Positions 1-32,802 of a stretch of 46,522 bases of DNA are shown here, one piece after another (the first letter of the stretch is position 1; each line of letters begins with the position of its first letter). The stretch is from Oscillospiraceae bacterium (lineage in GTDB: Bacteria > Bacillota > Clostridia > Oscillospirales > Ruminococcaceae): the NCBI GenBank assembly GCA_014799325.1, contig JAAVIE010000080.1, positions 1 to 46,522 of the forward strand. Direction: 5' to 3'. The translations under genes were made by a program, and so were the position numbers. The notes under the pieces are model-generated. The model did not search any database and had not been told where the DNA came from. It was given only the letters and a program-made list of their open reading frames with translations.

Positions 1-240
1 CGAATTTCAAAAAGGACAAAATTTTCGAAGAAAATTTTGTCCGGTTCCGAAAATGAAGCTCTTGGCGCTTGCGCCATTGAGCTTCATTTTCGGAATTTTG
101 AAATTCTTTTTAAATCAGCAAATTACCGCCAACTGCCTTGAGAGAACCAAAATTATCACCAACTGCCCTGAGAGAACCAAAATCACCGCCAACTTTCCTA
201 AGAGAACCATAAAACAGCACAACTTTCCCGGGAGCATAAA
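1..240 (+). repeat. Branched-hairpin intergenic element, copy A
   Basis: An 11-base inverted repeat (GAATTTCAAAA at 2-12, TTTTGAAATTC at 96-106) encloses two near-perfect hairpins at 14-42 (13-bp stem) and 45-95 (17-bp stem plus an inner GGCGC/GCGCC stem), so a three-way junction can form. Four direct 30-bp units follow at 121-150, 151-180, 181-210 and 211-240, sharing a core like CCAACTGCCTGAGAGAACCA. Similar ends and units occur at 3711, 28548 and 32382. The window starts at the left end, so any left-hand 30-bp units lie outside. A 63-codon frame across it is judged spurious. Confidence 0.88.
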
Positions 241-3710: not shown

Positions 3711-3830
3711 GGTTATCACTCGCACAACTTTCCTAAAGCGGATCACCACTCGCACAACTGCCTGATAGCAAGAATTTCAAAAAACTCCCGGCTCGGTCGG
3801 ATAACAAACTTTTTAAAATTCTTTTTAAAT
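3711..3830 (+). repeat. Branched-hairpin intergenic element, copy B (collapsed)
   Basis: Two 30-bp units (3711-3740 and 3741-3770, sharing ATCAC-ACTCGCACAACT) lead into GAATTTCAAAA at 3772-3782. The right end is TTTTAAAATTC at 3811-3821, with one mismatch to the family end. The interior (CTCGGTCGGATAACAAACTT) matches only the right half of hairpin 1 and left half of hairpin 2 of the copy at 28548, so this copy looks like a deletion derivative. Confidence 0.82.
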
Positions 3831-4759: not shown

Positions 4760-6277
4760 ATGAGCAGTGAATCGGTAAAGGAATATTTCAGAAGCATCAG
4801 GTTCAGGATATGGATCACCTTTGTGGCGTTTTCTTTGGGTACTATGGGAATGCTGCTTTTTTTCCAGCTTTTCCTTACCCCTATTTTTTACAGCGCCACC
4901 AAGACCAATGAATACAAATCCTGCGCCAATACAATAAAAAGACAAATTGCCGCCGAAAGCTGGGATCCATACAGCATAGACAGCTTAAACGGGCTCCGAA
5001 AGCTGGTAGTAAATCTTGCAACTTCAAATCAGCTTGATATTATCGTAAACTTTCCCGATATAAACAACGGCACTATCTACGCCACAAAATCGGGGGGCAC
5101 TGATGTTCTTAAGCGGAATGTCAGCGACAATATACGATCCGCCCTGGCAGATTCAAAGGACGGCACTATAATAACAAAAGCCGACACCGACAACGCAGAG
5201 GGCATTATCCTTGCTACCTACGCCCAGAAAGGCGGGGAGACGGTGGCTTATCTCTTTATTTTCGGTTATACCGAGCCTATAGGAACTACTCTGAGTATCA
5301 TCAACGCCATTTCCCTTATCTGCTCCAACGTTGTTTTGGTGGTAGCCTGCATTATTTCTATAATGATCTCCTCCCACATTGCTAACCCGCTGGTGAAGAT
5401 CTCAAAAAATGCGGATAAGCTTATCACAGGCGATTTTCACATGGAGATAAGGAAAACCGAGTATGACGAGATCGCCACTCTCACCAAAAATCTGAATGCC
5501 GCCTCCGAGGAGATCAACAAGACCGAAACTCTCCGAAAGGATCTTATGGCAAACGTTTCACATGATCTGCGCACCCCTCTCACTATGATAAAGGCCTATG
5601 CGGAGATGATCAGAGATCTGTCGGGGGATAATCCCGAAAAGCGTGAAAAGCATCTGCAGGTCATTATAGACGAGACTGACCGCCTTACCCTGCTTGTAAC
5701 CGATATACTGAACCTTTCCAAGCTGGAAAGCGGGGTCATGCCTATTGAGCTGCTGAGCTTTGATTTCTCCGATGATCTGAAGGACATCATAAGCCGCTTT
5801 TCGCTCCTTGACGATATGAAGGACTATCAGGTAAGACTGGAAGCCGAGGACGGGATCCTGATAAACGCGGATCGGCAGAAGATAGAACAGGTAGTCTACA
5901 ACCTTGTGAACAATGCCATAAACTATATCGGCGAGGACAAGCTTGTTACAGTGCGCCTCTACAGAAAGGACTCGGGTACCGCAAGGTTTGAGGTGGCGGA
6001 CAGAGGACTTGGTATCCCCCCCGAAAAGCTGCCCTATATTTGGGACAGGTACTACAAGATCGACCGCTCGGAGAACTACAAGCGCAGCATAAAGGGCACG
6101 GGTTTGGGTCTGTCCATAGTCAAGGGCATTCTCACCAGCCACAATTTCTTATTCGGCTGTGACAGCGTGCTTGGGCAGGGCAGCGTATTCTGGTTTGAGT
6201 TTGAGATGCCCGTTCCTATGCCGCAGCAGAGCAAGTTTTTGAGAAGAAAAGAGGGCAAAAACGGTGAGAACCCTTAA
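4760..6277 (+). CDS. HAMP-containing sensor histidine kinase (VanS-like)
   Basis: The 505-residue kinase has membrane helices at about 15-40 and 176-204 flanking an extracellular sensor region of about 135 residues. A HAMP domain follows (about 205-258), then an H-box (VSHDLRTPL with His268), an N-box (NLVNNAINYI), and ATP-lid motifs (DRGLGI, GTGLGLSIV). All residues for autophosphorylation are present. It follows the response regulator by three bases and overlaps the RluA gene by 14, so the three are one transcript. The extracellular domain gives no ligand clue. Confidence 0.95.
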   Translation: MSSESVKEYFRSIRFRIWITFVAFSLGTMGMLLFFQLFLTPIFYSATKTNEYKSCANTIKRQIAAESWDPYSIDSLNGLRKLVVNLATSNQLDIIVNFPDINNGTIYATKSGGTDVLKRNVSDNIRSALADSKDGTIITKADTDNAEGIILATYAQKGGETVAYLFIFGYTEPIGTTLSIINAISLICSNVVLVVACIISIMISSHIANPLVKISKNADKLITGDFHMEIRKTEYDEIATLTKNLNAASEEINKTETLRKDLMANVSHDLRTPLTMIKAYAEMIRDLSGDNPEKREKHLQVIIDETDRLTLLVTDILNLSKLESGVMPIELLSFDFSDDLKDIISRFSLLDDMKDYQVRLEAEDGILINADRQKIEQVVYNLVNNAINYIGEDKLVTVRLYRKDSGTARFEVADRGLGIPPEKLPYIWDRYYKIDRSENYKRSIKGTGLGLSIVKGILTSHNFLFGCDSVLGQGSVFWFEFEMPVPMPQQSKFLRRKEGKNGENP

Positions 6278-18490: not shown

Positions 18491-21400
18491 TTACTTTCTC
18501 TTCTTGAAGATGATAGCAGCTGCAGCGGAAACTATTGCAGGAACGACTGCTACAACAATACCTGTAGAGGGGTTGCTGCCGCCGTTGGAGCCGTTTGAAG
18601 CGGACTCTGCGGTTGTGGTGTTTGCAGGCTCTTCTCCCTCAACAGCCTTTACCGCGTCGTCGGAGAGACTTACAAGATAGTAGTCGGAGAAGTGCTTTGC
18701 TTCAAAGGAAGCATAACCGTCAGCAATTGTCAGCTTGATGAATTCAACATCGTTTTCGCCTATATAAGCCACATAGTTGGACTTGCCGTCATGAGGCAGT
18801 GTTACCTTTACGGTAGTGCCGTTAACAGGCTGAACGGTGTTTCCGTCCTGATCCTTAAGGGTAACGCTGATAACTTCGTTTACGGAAACCGCATCGGAAG
18901 CATTTGCAAGACTTTCTATTGCAGCAGCTATTACAGCAGCCTTTTCCTCTTCGCTCGCATCAGCAAGCTTTATTTCAACATCGGCAATTATCTTTGAAAC
19001 AGCTTCTTCAAATGTTTCTGCATTAGCTTCGAGAGTTACGCCAAGCTCGGGGATCTCGATCTTTATGTCGGTTCCATTCTTGACATCGGTCTCGCCGCTT
19101 GCAGCACCCTCGGTAACTTCGGGCTTGGGTTCCTCGGGGTTGGAGGTATCTGTGCCGCTTGTAACGTCGGGATCGGGCTCGTTGGAAGATCCGCTTGTAA
19201 CGTCGGGATCGGGCTCGTTGGAAGATCCGCTTGTTACGTCGGGATCAGGCTCGTTCACATCGGAGGATCCGCTTGTTTCATCGGGATCGGGCTCGTTTAC
19301 ATCGGAGGATCCGCTTGTAACGTCGGGATCGGGCTCGTTTACATCGGAGGATCCGCTTGTTACATCGGGATCGGGTTCGTTTACATCGGAGGATCCGCTT
19401 GTTACATCGGGATCGGGCTCGTTTGCGTCGGAGGATCCGCTTGTTACATCGGGATCGGGTTCGCTTGTGTCGGAGGTATCGCTTGTGATCTCAGGCTCGG
19501 GCTCGGGCTCGGTCACGGTAACAACACAAGTTGCTTTCTTTGTTTCGTCAGCGTTGGAAACTACGGTAATGGTAGCTGTACCTGCTCCCACAGCTGTTAC
19601 CTTGCCGCTCTGATCAACGGTAGCAACGGTAGCGTTGCTTGATGACCAGGTAACGGTCTTGTCTGCTGCGTCCTCGGGAGCGACAACAGCGGTAAGTACC
19701 TCGGATCCGTCCTTTTCAAGAGTAAGCTCGTTCTTATTGAGAGTTACGCTTGCTACGGGTACTGTTACGGTGATCTCGCAAGTTGCGGTCTTGCTGCCTG
19801 CCTTAGCGGTAACAACAGCCTTGCCTGCGCCTATGGCGGTGACAACGCCCTTTTCGTCAACTGTTACTACCTTTTCATCGCTTGATGCCCAGGTAACGGT
19901 CTTGTCGGTAGCGTCATCGGGTTTAACTGTGGCTGTAAGTTCAAGAGTATCGCCCTTGTTGAGATTTGCGGTCGTCTTATCGAGAGATATTGAATCTACA
20001 GCAATTGTCTTTGCAACAACTGTTACCTTGCACTGTGCGGAAACGGTCTCGTTAGCCTTAGCGGTAATTGTTGCTTCGCCTACCTTAAGAGCGGTGATCT
20101 TGCCTGTTTCATCTACGGAAACAACTGTTTCATCGGAGGAAGTCCAGGTGATCTTATCGGTGCTGTCTGCAGGGGTCAATGTTGCGGTAAGAGGTTTTGT
20201 GCCGTCAACTTCAAGCTCTACGGCAGTATCGCTGAGCTTGATTTCGGTTGCAGCTATAGCCTCTTCTGTAACTGTTATTGTGCATTCTGCGGTAAGCTTT
20301 TGCTGACCCTGGTTGGCAGCTGTTACGGTAAGAGTTGCCGTACCCTTGCTAACACCCTTGATCTTTCCGTCCGTTACGGTGAAGATGCTTTCATCGGAGG
20401 AGGCGTACTTTATATTGGAGATATTTGCGCCTTCGGGATCAACTGTGATAACAACAGTCTTTTCGTCGCCTACCAATATGGTAATATCTTCAATGTAGAT
20501 GTTTTTTGCGGGAGCGGCAACGGTTACTTCACATGTTGCGGTCTTGTCGCCTGCCTTTGCGGTAATTGTTGCTGTACCCTTGCCGACTGCGGTGACAACG
20601 CCGTCCTCAACGGTTGCTACAGTTTCGTCGCTGGTTGTCCAGGTGACTGTCTTTTCGTCAGCGTCTGCGGGGGTAACGGTTGCTGTGAGCTTTGCTGTAC
20701 CGTCAACCAAAAGGAAAAGTGAATCTTGATCGAGAGTAATTTTCTTAACGGGGTTTGTTACTTTTACTATGCAGGTAGCTGTTGCCTTTCCTGCGGTGGC
20801 TGTGATAGTTGTTTCACCGGTAGCCACAGCGGTAACAACGCCGTCCTCAACAGTAGCAATTGTTTCATCGCTGCTCTTCCAAACTACCTTGTCGGTGCTG
20901 TTAGAGGGATCAACTGTTGCTTCAAGAGTAAATGTTTCGTCCTTTACGAGAGCGAGGGTGGTTTTATTAAGTGTTACGGCTGATGCGGATATTGTTACGG
21001 TAACCTCGCATTCGGCGGAGAAATCGCCTGCTTTGGCGGTTATTGTAGTTGTTCCTTTGCCAACTGCGGTTACTACGCCGTCTTCAACGGTTGCAACAGT
21101 TTTGTCGCTGCTGCTCCATACGACCTCATCGGAACTGTTATCGGGAGAAACGGTTGCTTTAAGAGTAAATGTATCGTCCTTTTCAAGAGTAATGGCGTCT
21201 TCGTTGAGAGCCACACCTGTTGCTGGCACAAGTTCACCTATCCAAAGTTTAATCGTATCCTCTGCGTCAGCCGTTTGAACCATGGCTATAAGCTTAAATC
21301 CTGTAAATTGGACATCAGAATCATAATTTTTAATTGCTTCAGCTATGTTGGCAGTAACAGTAACCTCGTTTGTTTCGGCATTGAAAGAAGAGGAACCGTC

Positions 21401-22693
21401 AACTATCCAAGGATAATTATCATTACTTTCATCATATGCGCCAATTTGTATTTGATACGAAATTTTTGACGGGTCAAAGCTTTTTCCGCCGCTGGTTGCC
21501 TTTGCTACTTTAAAATTAACTGTCAATTTGGACACGTTAAAATTGCCAAAGGTCTCAGCTGAGAAGCCGTCAACCGTGAAAGCGGTTAAACCCTGCCAAT
21601 TCCATTCGCCGTTTGCGACAATTTCTACTGTTGCTTCATCTATAGTTGTTTCGATGGGAGTTTTGGGATTCTCTGATGTATCTTTTCCTATCGTAAGTGC
21701 GATTGTATCTTCTGCGTCATCCTTTGCAACCGCTACTATAAGATTAAATCCTGTAAATTGGATATCAGAATCAAAACCTTTAAGTGCTGCGGATATGTCG
21801 GCAGTAACTGTAACCTCGTTTGTTTCGGCATCAAAAGAAGAGGAGCCTACCACTATCCAAGGCCACTCACTTGTTGTATCGGGATTGGTGTCATGTGCGC
21901 CAATTTGTATTTGATATGAAATTTTTGACACATCAAAGCTTTCTCCGCCGCTGGTTGCCTCTGTTGCTATAAATTTAACTGTCATGGTGGACACGTTAAA
22001 ATCGCCGAGGGTTTCAGCCGAGAAACCGTCAACCTTGATAGAAGTTGAACCCTGCCAATTATAGATACCGTTTGCTTTAATTTCTACTTCTGCATAATCA
22101 ATTGTTGCTTCAATGGGAGTTTTGGGATTTTCGTTGTCTATGGGGTCTGTCAGTTCAGCAGAAATGACATTCACACTGTCAACCCAACCAACTTGCATAA
22201 TGACTTTGGCATTTGCTATTGCGGTCTCATCATCATCTGTTTCTAAAGCTTCTTTAGCTGTTTCAAGCAATTTTGATGTTGAAACGGTTGCTGTATAAGT
22301 ATCTGTTGAATTGAATATTGTTCCATCATAAGGATTGGGAAGACCCACTTGTGCTGTATTTGTACTTCCGCTATAATCATATTCTCCTGCCTTGTCTTCA
22401 AAAAACATTGAAAAAACATTACTTAATTGCCATTGACCGCTTGCGTTAACATTTGCGGCGACTTCTTCGCTTATTTGAAACTTTATGTTAAAAGTTTCAT
22501 AATTCAGAAGCTGTGAAAAAAACTCATCTCCTTTTTCAAAGGTCGCAACTTCTTTGCCTTTTGCTATTGATCCAGTTTTGACATTGACAGGACATGTTTC
22601 ATCAGCCGCATTAACAACTATCCCCGTAACGGCAACAGAAGTAATGGTCAAAGCACTTGCCACAATTCCTGCAATGATCTTCTTCATTCGCAT
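18491..22693 (-). CDS. Wall-anchored BIG2-repeat surface protein
   Basis: The 1400-residue protein starts with a signal peptide (MRMKKIIAG, hydrophobic to about 30). An N-terminal domain to about 195 is followed by two related modules of about 145 residues (roughly 195-345 and 345-487; each with DGFSAET, ISYQIQIGA, and a DIQFTGF-like strand). Seven BIG2 Ig-like domains of about 80 residues follow (about 488-1057), then a repeat of about 14 residues (EPDPDVTSGSSDVN; about 1065-1180), another globular segment, and a C-terminal NPSTG motif with a hydrophobic stretch and KKRK tail. This is a sorting signal of the NPxTG type. It likely reaches away from the wall to bind fibre or host. GGAGG lies seven bases before the ATG. 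Confidence 0.9.
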   Translation of the reverse strand: MRMKKIIAGIVASALTITSVAVTGIVVNAADETCPVNVKTGSIAKGKEVATFEKGDEFFSQLLNYETFNIKFQISEEVAANVNASGQWQLSNVFSMFFEDKAGEYDYSGSTNTAQVGLPNPYDGTIFNSTDTYTATVSTSKLLETAKEALETDDDETAIANAKVIMQVGWVDSVNVISAELTDPIDNENPKTPIEATIDYAEVEIKANGIYNWQGSTSIKVDGFSAETLGDFNVSTMTVKFIATEATSGGESFDVSKISYQIQIGAHDTNPDTTSEWPWIVVGSSSFDAETNEVTVTADISAALKGFDSDIQFTGFNLIVAVAKDDAEDTIALTIGKDTSENPKTPIETTIDEATVEIVANGEWNWQGLTAFTVDGFSAETFGNFNVSKLTVNFKVAKATSGGKSFDPSKISYQIQIGAYDESNDNYPWIVDGSSSFNAETNEVTVTANIAEAIKNYDSDVQFTGFKLIAMVQTADAEDTIKLWIGELVPATGVALNEDAITLEKDDTFTLKATVSPDNSSDEVVWSSSDKTVATVEDGVVTAVGKGTTTITAKAGDFSAECEVTVTISASAVTLNKTTLALVKDETFTLEATVDPSNSTDKVVWKSSDETIATVEDGVVTAVATGETTITATAGKATATCIVKVTNPVKKITLDQDSLFLLVDGTAKLTATVTPADADEKTVTWTTSDETVATVEDGVVTAVGKGTATITAKAGDKTATCEVTVAAPAKNIYIEDITILVGDEKTVVITVDPEGANISNIKYASSDESIFTVTDGKIKGVSKGTATLTVTAANQGQQKLTAECTITVTEEAIAATEIKLSDTAVELEVDGTKPLTATLTPADSTDKITWTSSDETVVSVDETGKITALKVGEATITAKANETVSAQCKVTVVAKTIAVDSISLDKTTANLNKGDTLELTATVKPDDATDKTVTWASSDEKVVTVDEKGVVTAIGAGKAVVTAKAGSKTATCEITVTVPVASVTLNKNELTLEKDGSEVLTAVVAPEDAADKTVTWSSSNATVATVDQSGKVTAVGAGTATITVVSNADETKKATCVVTVTEPEPEPEITSDTSDTSEPDPDVTSGSSDANEPDPDVTSGSSDVNEPDPDVTSGSSDVNEPDPDVTSGSSDVNEPDPDETSGSSDVNEPDPDVTSGSSNEPDPDVTSGSSNEPDPDVTSGTDTSNPEEPKPEVTEGAASGETDVKNGTDIKIEIPELGVTLEANAETFEEAVSKIIADVEIKLADASEEEKAAVIAAAIESLANASDAVSVNEVISVTLKDQDGNTVQPVNGTTVKVTLPHDGKSNYVAYIGENDVEFIKLTIADGYASFEAKHFSDYYLVSLSDDAVKAVEGEEPANTTTAESASNGSNGGSNPSTGIVVAVVPAIVSAAAAIIFKKRK
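19160..19475 (-). repeat. 42-bp coding repeats in the wall protein
   Basis: Around seven to nine near-identical units, mostly 42 bp, with two shorter 33-36 bp units, encode EPDPDVTSGSSDVN-type segments, a flexible stalk. Short units lack one SDV step. Such arrays change copy number by recombination. Confidence 0.9.
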
Positions 22694-28001: not shown

Positions 28002-28535
28002 ATGAATAATTATAAAGTTGACGATTTTTCAATAGACACTTTAAAAATAATAGACGTAAATAAGCTTAAGCTGGAAAAGAAAGACAGCGGCTACCTCTTT
28101 GCCGAATACGAGGGCAATAAGTACGAGGAAGTGAGCCTGACCCGCTTACAGCCCTTTTACTGCCTTGATACCTACATCAGCGTTGCTTTCAGGAACAACG
28201 AGGAGGAGTGGATAGAAATAGGCGTAATAAAGGACTTAAAGGACATGAGCGACGAGCAGAGACAGCTTTGCGAGGATTACCTTGATTTCCGCTACTATAT
28301 TCCGATTATTACAAAAATTTACTCTATCCGCGACAACAGAATGGGATATCTGTTTGTTGACGCGGAGACTACCGCAGGACGGAAGAAGATCGCGGTTAAT
28401 GACTGGTGGACTAACTTCCGCCTCAATACCAGCGGAATTCTCACCGTTACCGATTCCGACGGAAACAAGTATCAGGTTCCCGATCTGAATAAGCTGGACG
28501 GAAGCAGCAATAAGAAACTTGAACTGTTTGTCTGA
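28002..28535 (+). CDS. DUF1854-family protein
   Basis: The 177-residue soluble protein matches DUF1854: KPFYCLDTYISVAFRN-like middle (here QPFYCLDTYISVAF), EEEWIEIGVIKDL, and a DLNKLDGSS-like end. DUF1854 genes are often next to ABC exporters; its role there is unknown, so it is thought to be an accessory subunit or regulator. Here it lies 27 bases after one zinc-ribbon exporter and 275 bases before a second, with a hairpin repeat element between. AAAGGA precedes the ATG. Confidence 0.88.
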   Translation: MNNYKVDDFSIDTLKIIDVNKLKLEKKDSGYLFAEYEGNKYEEVSLTRLQPFYCLDTYISVAFRNNEEEWIEIGVIKDLKDMSDEQRQLCEDYLDFRYYIPIITKIYSIRDNRMGYLFVDAETTAGRKKIAVNDWWTNFRLNTSGILTVTDSDGNKYQVPDLNKLDGSSNKKLELFV

Positions 28536-28547
28536 TTGTTGGCATAA

Positions 28548-28795
28548 AAATTATCACAGCTTTTCTGAAAGCGTGTGAGAAATCAGTACAAGTTTGCTGA
28601 TAGCACGAATTTCAAAAATCGACCGAGCTTGGAGTTTTGCCCGGTTTTTCAAGCAAAACTCCAAGCTCGGTCGGATAACAAACTTTTTAAAATTGCTTGC
28701 AATTTTAAAAAGTTTGTGGTTTTGAAATTCTTTTCAAATCAGTAAATTACCACCAAGTTTCCTGAGAGAACAATAAATTAGCACAACTGATAAAA
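28548..28795 (+). repeat. Branched-hairpin intergenic element, copy C (best preserved)
   Basis: Outer arms GAATTTCAAAA (28607-28617) and TTTTGAAATTC (28720-28730) pair perfectly. Inside, a 21-bp stem (28620-28640 with 28653-28673) and a 19-bp stem with two-base loop (28678-28696 with 28699-28717) are both perfect. Left flank ends CAAGTTTGCTGATAGCAC; the right flank repeats a 30-bp unit with CCACCAAGTTTCCTGAGAGA. It lies in the DUF1854-ABC intergenic gap. Confidence 0.92.
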
Positions 28796-28810: not shown

Positions 28811-30997
28811 ATGAATTTAAAAATATCACTTCCGAGGGATTACAAGAACGATCCCAAGGATATATTATTCAGCCTGCCCTTCGACATCACCGAGGAGGGC
28901 AAGCTGACAAAAGGTCATTTTATGGCAGACCGCGATAAAATGTACGTTTACGGTGAAAATGGGTTAATGAAAACCCTTGAAATAAAGGATTATTACAGCT
29001 TTGAGGTTTTTCGTCAGTCGGGCAGCTCAATGCTCCGCGGAAGGCGCAGAGACAACAGCAAGTGGGAGCTGTTCTGCTGTTTCAGCCAGACTCACTACAT
29101 ACGCTTTGCCGAGCTGGCAAAGATACTCGATTTCTACGCTAAGACAGGAAATCTCGCTGAGGCAAGCGACACGGAAGAACCCAACTGCCCCAAATGCGGC
29201 GCAAAGATCGAGGGAATGGCGGAATGTCCATTCTGCGCCAAGCGCACGGGAACGGTGAAAAAGCTCATTAACAGAATGATGAGGTATAAAGTACCATTTT
29301 TGGCCGTAACAATTTTAGCCATACTGTCTTACGGCGCAAATATCATTATGCCTATGCTGTACAAGCGTGTGGTTGACGATGTTGGCATCGGCGAGGGCGC
29401 TGATCTGCAGCTATTTACCCAAATTGCCATAATGATAGTGGCTTTGTCGGTAATAACCTGTATTTTTGACTTTGCGGCGTGGAGGATAAACATTAAGCTT
29501 TCCACAAGATTTATAAGGGATCTGCGCAAGGACTTGTTTGACAAGGTTCAGCTTATTTCTATGAAGTCCTTTGCCCGCCGCACCTCGGGCGAGATCATAC
29601 GCCGTTTGAGCGACGATGCAAGAGTTTTGCAGAACTTTATGACGGGAAACGGCAGGCAGATGATCCTTAATGTGGCTGCCCTTATCGTTTTGGCGGTAAT
29701 TATGTTCGTCACCAACTGGAAGCTTGCTTTAATGGTAATCATTCCCTTACCAATAGCAGGCTGGGTGGCACAGAAGATAATGCAGAGAATAGGCGCAGGC
29801 TACCAGCGTTGGTGGAGAAAGACCTGCGATTCCTCCAAATACCTTAATGACGTAATTTCGGGCGCAAGAGTGGTAAAAAGCTACGGCAGTGAGGAAAGGG
29901 AGATAAAACGTTACGAGGGCATTTCCTACACAGTATCCAAAAACCTTGCAAAAGCGGAATGCACCTGGTATCTGCTGTACCCCATAATGCGCTATATTTT
30001 GGCAATAGGCGAAATGCTGATGCTGTACTTCGGCGCTAAATATGTTATGAACTTCACCATTACTTTGGGTGAATTTGTGCAGTTCACAGGCTACGCTTCC
30101 ATGATGTACGGCCCTGTTTACTGGCTGATACAGCTTCCCCGAACACTTACCCAAGCTATGGTTTCTGCGGGAAAGGTGTTTGAGATCTTAGACGAACCCA
30201 TTGACCTTACCGAATCGGAAAATGCGGTAGAATGCGACATTGACGGAAATATCACCTTTGACAACGTTTCCTTCGGCTACACCGCATACAACCCCGTTCT
30301 CAAAAACATTTCCTTTGAGATAAAGCAGGGTGAGATGATAGGTATAGTAGGTCACTCGGGCGTGGGTAAATCTACGCTGATAAACCTTCTGATGCGTCTT
30401 TACGATCCCACCTACGGTTCAATCAAGATCGACGGAACGGATCTTAGGGAAATGTCCGCGGAATCTCTTCACAGCAGACTGGGCGTGGTTTTGCAGGAGA
30501 CCTTCCTCTTTAACGGCACGGTAATGGAAAACATTGCCTATTCAAAGCCCGATGCTACTTTTGAGGAAATTATAGCGGCAGCGAAGATCGCAGACGCCCA
30601 CGGTTTTATAACAAGACTCCCCGACGGCTACAATACTTATGTTGGTGAAAAGGGTTACAGCCTTTCAGGGGGCGAGCGGCAGAGAGTGGCTATTGCAAGA
30701 GCCATTCTGCGTGATCCTAAGATACTTATCCTGGACGAAGCCACCGCAAGCCTTGACACACAGACGGAAAAGCAGATACAGACCGCTTTGAACCGCCTTA
30801 TCAAGGGAAGGACTACCATTGCCATTGCACACAGACTTTCCACTTTAAGCAGCGCCGACAGGCTTATCGTCCTTGACAAGGGCAAGGTCGCCGAGATCGG
30901 CTCACATACTGAGCTTATGGGAAGAAAGGGCGTTTATTACAGGCTGGTTATGGCGCAGAGGACTACTTCCGCTATGAAGAAAACCGCGGACGAATAA
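28811..30997 (+). CDS. Second ABC exporter with zinc ribbon
   Basis: The 728-residue half-transporter is built like the one at 25623: N-terminal soluble region (about 1-120), Cys4 ribbon (NCPKCG...CPFC, about 125-145), six-helix membrane domain (about 150-460), then ATPase with GHSGVGKST (about 515), LSGGERQR, ILILDEA and IAHRLS. Both ATPase sites look active. It is likely the partner of the first exporter, with the DUF1854 protein as accessory. AGGTGA precedes the ATG. No cargo gene is nearby. Confidence 0.9.
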   Translation: MNLKISLPRDYKNDPKDILFSLPFDITEEGKLTKGHFMADRDKMYVYGENGLMKTLEIKDYYSFEVFRQSGSSMLRGRRRDNSKWELFCCFSQTHYIRFAELAKILDFYAKTGNLAEASDTEEPNCPKCGAKIEGMAECPFCAKRTGTVKKLINRMMRYKVPFLAVTILAILSYGANIIMPMLYKRVVDDVGIGEGADLQLFTQIAIMIVALSVITCIFDFAAWRINIKLSTRFIRDLRKDLFDKVQLISMKSFARRTSGEIIRRLSDDARVLQNFMTGNGRQMILNVAALIVLAVIMFVTNWKLALMVIIPLPIAGWVAQKIMQRIGAGYQRWWRKTCDSSKYLNDVISGARVVKSYGSEEREIKRYEGISYTVSKNLAKAECTWYLLYPIMRYILAIGEMLMLYFGAKYVMNFTITLGEFVQFTGYASMMYGPVYWLIQLPRTLTQAMVSAGKVFEILDEPIDLTESENAVECDIDGNITFDNVSFGYTAYNPVLKNISFEIKQGEMIGIVGHSGVGKSTLINLLMRLYDPTYGSIKIDGTDLREMSAESLHSRLGVVLQETFLFNGTVMENIAYSKPDATFEEIIAAAKIADAHGFITRLPDGYNTYVGEKGYSLSGGERQRVAIARAILRDPKILILDEATASLDTQTEKQIQTALNRLIKGRTTIAIAHRLSTLSSADRLIVLDKGKVAEIGSHTELMGRKGVYYRLVMAQRTTSAMKKTADE

Positions 30998-32354: not shown

Positions 32355-32381
32355 GGGACTGCAAAAGGCAGTCCCTTTTTT
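32355..32381 (+). terminator. Strong intrinsic terminator
   Basis: GGGACTG (32355-32361) pairs with CAGTCCC (32369-32375), followed by six Ts. It directly abuts repeat copy D. Confidence 0.92.
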
Positions 32382-32802
32382 ATGCTCCCAAGAAACTTGG
32401 TGTTGATTTATGGTTCTCTCGGGAAAGGTGGACCGGGTGAAAGCCCGCTTTTCGGGAAGATGTGAGAGTGGAGATCCGCTTTTAAGGAATGTTGGCAGTA
32501 ATTGACTGATTTAAAAAAATTTCAAAACCGCCAAGATTTTAAGATTCGTGGTACTGATCCCTTTTAAAGCTGTGGGATCAGTACGAAAAACCGGGCAAAT
32601 TTACAATCTTGAGCTATTAGGTACTTCTCGGCTTGCCGAGAAGTACATGCAGCAAGCCGCTTTAACTGAGTTCGAATTTTTTGCTTGAAGAATTGGGCAA
32701 AAAATCCGAACTCAGAGAAACTGTATTTTTTTGCCAGGTTTTCAAGCAGAAAAATGCAGTTTCAAGTGATTCTTTGAAATTCGTGCGGTTAAGACAGTTA
32801 TA
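32382..32802 (-). repeat. Branched-hairpin intergenic element, copy D (four arms, inverted)
   Basis: Read on the minus strand it has the same layout: flank CGCACGAATTTCAAAG, outer arms (32772-32782 and 32517-32527), and right-hand 30-bp units to 32382. Inside are four hairpins: 32545-32587, 32621-32646 (11-bp perfect), 32666-32715 (18/19) and 32717-32763 (16/18). Between 32312 and 32989 there is no gene; the rest is terminator and promoter. Confidence 0.9.

Follow-up and report, generated by a model that had tools for sequence, protein, structure and literature searches.

The window, the whole stretch of 46,522 nucleotides analysed here, is one contig (C80, JAAVIE010000080.1) of a 2.64 Mb draft genome of an Oscillospiraceae bacterium (G000; 164 contigs, about 90% complete). 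In the gap between a DUF1854 gene and an ABC transporter gene lies a core in which an outer stem encloses two hairpins, with flanking units on both sides (Table 1). The 11-nt inverted ends of this core (GAATTTCAAAA/TTTTGAAATTC) are exact, and its hairpin 2 is without the tip that is present in most other copies with the same kind of interior (type B). The 248-nt stretch 28548-28795 folds better than its shuffled versions by 11.1 standard deviations as RNA and by 11.8 as DNA. It contains no ORF of at least 80 amino acids, in agreement with an earlier note on the window that had denied it coding capacity. Five of the eight neighbour proteins scanned around the copies in the window match known families (two ABC transporters, DUF1854, GGDEF-EAL, and a response regulator).

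Table 1. Features of the element copies and adjoining genes in the window.
Feature	Position	Strand	Evidence or detail
Upstream gene, DUF1854, co-directional	28002..28535	+	
Left flanking units, conserved CTGATAGCAC at their end	28548..28606	+	
Type B core, outer 11-bp stem around two hairpins	28607..28730	+	exact ends, fold, model R2 135.8 bits
Outer stem arms of this core	28607-28617 / 28720-28730	+	11 bp
Hairpin 1, type B tip GCCCGGTTTTTCAAGC	28620..28673	+	perfect 21-bp stem, arms 28620-28640/28653-28673
Hairpin 2	28678..28717	+	perfect 19-bp stem, arms 28678-28696/28699-28717
Right flank TTTTCAAATCAGTAAATTACC.., then unit of the 30-bp type	28731..28795	+	
Downstream ABC transporter gene, co-directional; the gap before it in relatives is the empty site	28811..30997	+	
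Type A core, same ends, two other hairpins	2..106	+	both ends exact; 116 bits
Right flank of the type A copy with its tandem 30-bp units	107..240	+	
Decayed type B core, one arm lost per hairpin	3772..3821	+	by eye against 28607-28730
Extended type B core, extra hairpins, one with reversed tip	32517..32782	- (canonical strand)	
Right-side flank and units of the extended copy	32376..32516	-	
Hairpin resembling an intrinsic terminator, where that array ends	32355..32375	+	

The earlier note had described four copies with 11-base inverted ends and 30-bp flanking units around perfect stems that are unrelated from copy to copy. Both ends are exact at 2-106 and 28607-28730, but the right end of 3772-3821 contains one mismatch, as does each end of 32517-32782. 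The flanking units do have a period of 30 (9.3 copies at locus L006). Perfect stems of 21 and 19 bp occur at 28607-28730, but the copy at 3772-3821, which scored only 11.9–14.3 bits with model R2, has no intact hairpin. Unrelated stems separate the type A core at 2-106 from the others, but those three are all type B or derived from it; what appeared as unrelated stems is the sum of two interior types and covariation inside each type. Elsewhere in the window, the minus strand at 18491-22693 encodes a 1400-aa ORF with 42-nt tandem repeats (19161-19496) and longer internal duplications, and a tandem repeat of about 22 bp is found close to the contig end (46406-46514).

About a hundred copies of the element are present in G000, mostly in intergenic positions, and the family thus extends beyond the four copies first noticed. 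Within the window, GAATTTCAAAA with at most one mismatch occurs 14 times (3.26 expected). Genome-wide, the exact end word occurs 274 times (132 + 142), compared with 7 times (5 + 2) for the reversed word, and 72 cores have both exact 11-nt inverted ends at core distance (reversed-pattern control, 0). Because several G000 contigs start only a few bases from a core, this count is probably a lower bound; the element also explains breaks between genes in draft assemblies of these species. Covariance models built on 35 sequences of type A and 18 of type B found further copies, and the analysis of genomic context used 103 distinct cores, a number that includes parts of extended cores. Three cores lie within a called ORF.

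The standard core, an outer stem around two hairpins, measures about 105 bp in type A and mostly 124–140 bp in type B. Ends and flanks are common to both types, and the interiors differ. About 40 nt of the left flank are conserved, with TGATAGCAC at its end, the right flank is marked by TTTTTAAATCAGTAAATTACCGCCAACTTTCCT, and the consensus of both is GATAGCAC-core-TTTTTAAATCAG. In many copies the right flank is followed by tandem units, each about 30 bp long. These arrays often finish at terminator-like hairpins (GGGCTGT...ACAGCCC or GGGACTGC...GCAGTCCC), as at about 245-267 and at 32355-32375 in the window and at loci L024 and L034, and such hairpins are sometimes found within an array. The ATCAG word on the right is missing from 11 cores, in eight of which, read by eye, TTTTTAAA directly joins a ribosome-binding site and start codon; another of the 11 (L029) keeps the rest of its right unit.

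Extra hairpins are found in three extended copies (window 32517-32782, L002, and L059). The type B tip, TGCCC(A/G)(G/A)(C/T)TTTTCAAGCA, is kept although stems differ between cores: allowing up to three mismatches, 31 of 48 scanned type B cores (five of the 48 come from relatives) have it twice, 14 have it once, and 3 are without it. It is reversed in none of these 48 cores; a reversed tip occurs in an extra hairpin of each of the three extended copies. At L064 (about 6046-6206), on the same contig as G313:C199, hairpin 1 of a type B core contains a non-coding palindrome about 160 bp long, whose ends resemble AACTTGTTCCAATAG / CTATTGGAACATGTT. Similar ends occur at L150 (between 2493 and 3080) and L174 (G355). 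Such inserts are located within cores, close to them, or in the gaps between genes, and look like a MITE unrelated to the element.

Pairing in the stems is maintained through massive covariation, in line with the selection on shape that the earlier note had proposed. Two-sided changes affect 20 of the 41 predicted pairs in type A and 22 of the 52 in type B, and one-sided changes are few. The outer stem also covaries (GAATTTAAAAA/TTTTTAAATTC and GAATTTCAGAA/TTCTGAAATTC). In two relatives the same architecture occurs with other stem letters (type A in G355, type B in G298), and the stems are thus conserved as pairs beyond G000. Neither of the two outcomes that the earlier note had named as refuting it, a genome with no more copies and stems whose pairing is lost in related strains, is therefore observed. 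In alignments fitted to the models, relatives included, wobble pairs account for 30 of 3,869 stem cells (16/2,075 in type A and 14/1,794 in type B, leaving out one invariant junction pair). They are about 10-fold rarer than in tRNA stems (13/156 in the acceptor and T stems of 13 tRNA genes at the loci retrieved), a difference that may be due in part to the copies having diverged only recently from a common ancestor. The wobbles are asymmetric between strands: one-sided states in 35 sister comparisons comprise 15 G-U, 1 A-C and 7 other. The asymmetry is weaker when distinct events are counted (G-U 21, A-C 7, P 0.013; type A alone 12 and 1, type B alone 9 and 6). It suggests that the canonical strand is the strand that folds.

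About a hundred paralogous copies, some only one base pair apart, amount to a natural experiment on stem pairing, in which the question at stake is whether the arms stay complementary through compensatory selection or through copying from one arm to the other. The wobble asymmetry, the orientation bias described below, and loop inversions make this old question directly testable. The same 35 sister comparisons contain 40 two-sided Watson–Crick changes and 23 one-sided changes. The ratio of transitions to transversions among the two-sided changes (22:18, or 22/40 transitions) is similar to that at unpaired sites (35:30, 35/65), and there is therefore no sign of a preferred route through G-U intermediates. 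Furthermore, 3-nt loops are found inverted on identical arms in five cases. For hairpin 1 of type A, 10 of the 13 loop types have their reverse complement among the other types, where 4.2 are expected (P 0.004; P 0.09 when copies instead of types are counted). Loop inversion and multibase compensatory change are described as footprints of template switching in the excerpted text of a study of RNA hairpins (PMC8794818). The idea that the stems are rewritten is thus supported: loop inversions and two-sided changes are as template switching leaves them, although selection alone could suffice.

The tip, reversed in none of the 48 type B cores, speaks against template switching, and the reservation about selection applies to type A in particular. 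With a neutral rate taken from six free columns, 28 two-sided changes are seen in type A where 20.8 are expected from chance double hits, and as this is hardly above chance, selection alone could explain type A; in type B, 31 are seen and 7.75 expected. Arm copying as the sole cause of the paired changes is therefore not provable. Singletons that break a pair or form a wobble number 18 in 184 columns (0.098 per column), compared with 12 in 43 unpaired columns (0.26–0.30 per column). Although these numbers are small, pair-breaking singletons are about one-third as frequent as unpaired ones, and constraint or correction therefore seems to act after insertion.

Orientation relative to genes was determined for 79 of the 103 cores, with neighbours called by a simple ORF rule (24 cores with short flanks were left out, and 6 of the 79 are without a called neighbour). 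At an ORF cut-off of 90 amino acids, 37 cores lie in the sense direction and 5 in the antisense direction between co-directional neighbours; the remaining arrangements (+- 17, -+ 14) hold no orientation information. The bias is similar at cut-offs of 120, 150, and 180 amino acids (38:5, 31:4, and 22:4). A terminator-like arrangement, that is, a hairpin followed by a T run under a rule of our own (stem at least 8; cores from relatives included), occurs in 42 of 49 type A cores in the antisense direction and in 0 of 49 in the sense direction. For type B the figures are 22/35 and 15/35, and since both directions match, the terminator argument is clean for type A only. These predictions suggest that antisense copies within operons may be lost through terminating transcription. 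Replication-directed orientation is not favoured, because both orientations occur on single contigs (C29, C66, C94, and C111).

The family looks young and, judged by the genomes searched, confined to a species cluster. Among 71 genomes of the genus, the element occurs many times in three (G000, G355, and G298) and once in a fourth (G313). Of these 71 genomes, 4 are matched by BLASTN with a whole element and 3 by the type A model; the type B model matches 5, including a marginal hit in G353 (E 3.1e-4). In samples of the family, which include few members of the genus, the exact pattern is found in one genome out of 297, and one out of 197 is matched by the type A model; the former figure understates the genus because its sample is without G355 and G298. 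The element is also present in the MAG contig JAAVIG010000199.1 (Oscillospiraceae bacterium Mgla_MAG_6-bin_38), whose sequence is the same as that of G313 contig C199. On three G298 contigs (C266, C135, and C87) the matches stop at contig ends in or beside a core, and the copy number in G298 is therefore probably underestimated.

At all eight G000 loci that can be compared with orthologous sites in G355, the element is absent from the relative, and at the window locus it is absent from G298 as well (locus L032, with matches only in repeat sequence, was dropped from this count). The site in the window was read in eight relatives, one of them (L092) broken by a contig end, and the element is found in none. 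In one relative (L094, G313), the gap before the ABC transporter gene contains a different palindromic insert, CCTTTTTAAACTG ... CAGTTTAAAAAGG. The absence at orthologous sites is most simply explained by recent insertion and could come partly from loss. Such a difference between relatives, seen at all eight comparable loci, is what is expected of a MITE, and the claim that the element is unlike a MITE is not established, since the sites are empty as they would be for a mobile element. At these sites, which the note had recommended inspecting for a target duplication, the intergenic sequence is too diverged for one to be read.

No transposase or parent element was found in the G000 draft. Among the matches listed, unpaired end words at 12 + 2 loci, read over a few hundred bases each, represent mismatched, extended or truncated cores or chance hits. 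The IS200-like Y1_Tnp family gave just two partial matches, both at contig ends (L086 1501-1713 and L087 1501-1629); they adjoin hairpins of another kind, and in this draft of about 90% completeness no link to RAYT or IS200 as mobiliser was seen. The elements compared with phage, plasmid, and virus collections had no match there. A 16-base match occurs in 25 viral stretches; 21 of these have no second end over the next 320 bases or so, and the other four, by eye, have one but a different interior, and all were rejected.

The element has a frame that stays constant, made up of a left unit, an 11-bp outer stem, a right unit, and tandem 30-bp units, and this frame carries one of two interchangeable two-hairpin interiors. 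It is best read, with a probability of about 0.6, as a lineage-specific, non-autonomous, BOX-like interspersed repeat that is filtered by transcription, spread in trans, and maintained in its stems by template switching. An enzyme acting in trans would spread the element, which would then be co-transcribed with its neighbours and fold in the mRNA. Transcription would read through sense copies, whereas antisense copies in operons would present a hairpin with an immediate T run, causing termination and loss. During replication, template switching would transfer a change in one arm to the other, leaving the stems perfect, and selection against unpaired copies would assist this upkeep. A more tentative proposal is that shape itself is the hereditary unit: enzymes would see only the three-way junction and the hairpin tips, while template switching rewrites the stems pairwise. 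If so, copies could drift in sequence yet stay in the family and swap whole interiors between fixed ends.

Recognition as DNA offers a different, and rather unlikely, explanation. The sense strand would fold as single-stranded DNA, a structure-specific transposase or recombinase (with HUH or attC-like logic) would act on the junction, and only well-paired copies would multiply. The integron attC site follows such a shape-conserving logic. Strict Watson–Crick pairing with few wobbles, an outer stem whose covariation leaves its letters free, the 15:1 strand asymmetry of G-U over A-C states, and the DNA fold score (z -11.8) are all compatible with this mechanism. However, the only Y1_Tnp matches are the two partial ones near hairpins of another kind, orientation follows genes (both directions on each of the four contigs named above), unlike lagging-strand-directed insertion, and pair-breaking singletons are rarer than unpaired ones, which is unexpected for dead copies. 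Equally improbable is a dispersed cis-regulatory RNA, a leader or operon spacer under host selection at each site. The 37:5 sense bias, the passage from TTTTTAAA into a ribosome-binding site and start codon in eight of the 11 ATCAG-less cores, and the tip conserved in both hairpins of 31 of 48 type B cores would suit such a role, but the closest relatives lack the element at all eight comparable sites, the genes next to the window copies are mixed, wobbles are some 10-fold scarcer than in tRNA stems, and no Rfam family matches at gathering score. Chance palindromes, assembly artefact or contamination have next to no probability: the draft is in 164 contigs, and several contig starts lie only a few bases away from a core, but this reading is already refuted by the reversed-pattern control (72 to 0), the unique flanks and contig-internal position of most copies, and the occurrence of the element in G355, G298, and the MAG contig.

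At gathering score, none of 4227 Rfam families matches the window. Two weaker matches were taken as chance (23S-methyl on the minus strand, 30.9 bits with a threshold of 50; CRISPR-DR57 in L059, 26.9 bits with a threshold of 39). No description of the family in Ruminococcus or Oscillospiraceae was found in the open-licence literature, and the element is filed here as a variant of composite interspersed repeats. In its predicted behaviour it appears closest to the BOX elements of Streptococcus pneumoniae, a likeness of architecture. BOX (boxA-boxB-boxC) is composite and intergenic, with 125 copies in ATCC 700669, and, according to the excerpted text of one study, shares with the element constant ends, a variable number of interior modules, and predicted stem-loops when transcribed (PMC3049150). 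The element likewise has many intergenic copies, constant ends, and a modular interior (A, B, and extra hairpins). It differs from BOX in that its frame holds two unrelated interiors, its stems covary out to the outermost stem, and its tandem units lie outside the ends instead of inside. The orientation figures come from different measures, 37:5 with co-directional neighbours for the element and 60.8% on the leading strand for BOX in that excerpt (PMC3049150), and target duplications are known for BOX, whereas none is readable for the element.

REP/REPIN sequences, as portrayed in the excerpts of one paper, are also short, high-copy palindromes with complementary stem changes and families limited to a species or genus (PMC3733652). 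The element differs in its core of about 92–140 nt, its junction, and its long stems; its conserved flanks contain no GTAG/CGTC foot, a REPIN/RAYT feature, and no RAYT has been identified for it. GT stem pairs, often seen in those excerpts (PMC3733652), are rare in the element. RUP and SPRITE of pneumococcus are small repeats that look mobile, and SPRITE is terminator-like, but interchangeable interiors are a property of the element, and the excerpts that cover RUP and SPRITE describe none (PMC3049150). The template-switch hairpins share multibase compensatory changes and loop inversion with the element; in the excerpts they belong to RNA genes, chiefly ribosomal (PMC8794818), whereas the element is a repeat with about a hundred paralogues within a single genome.
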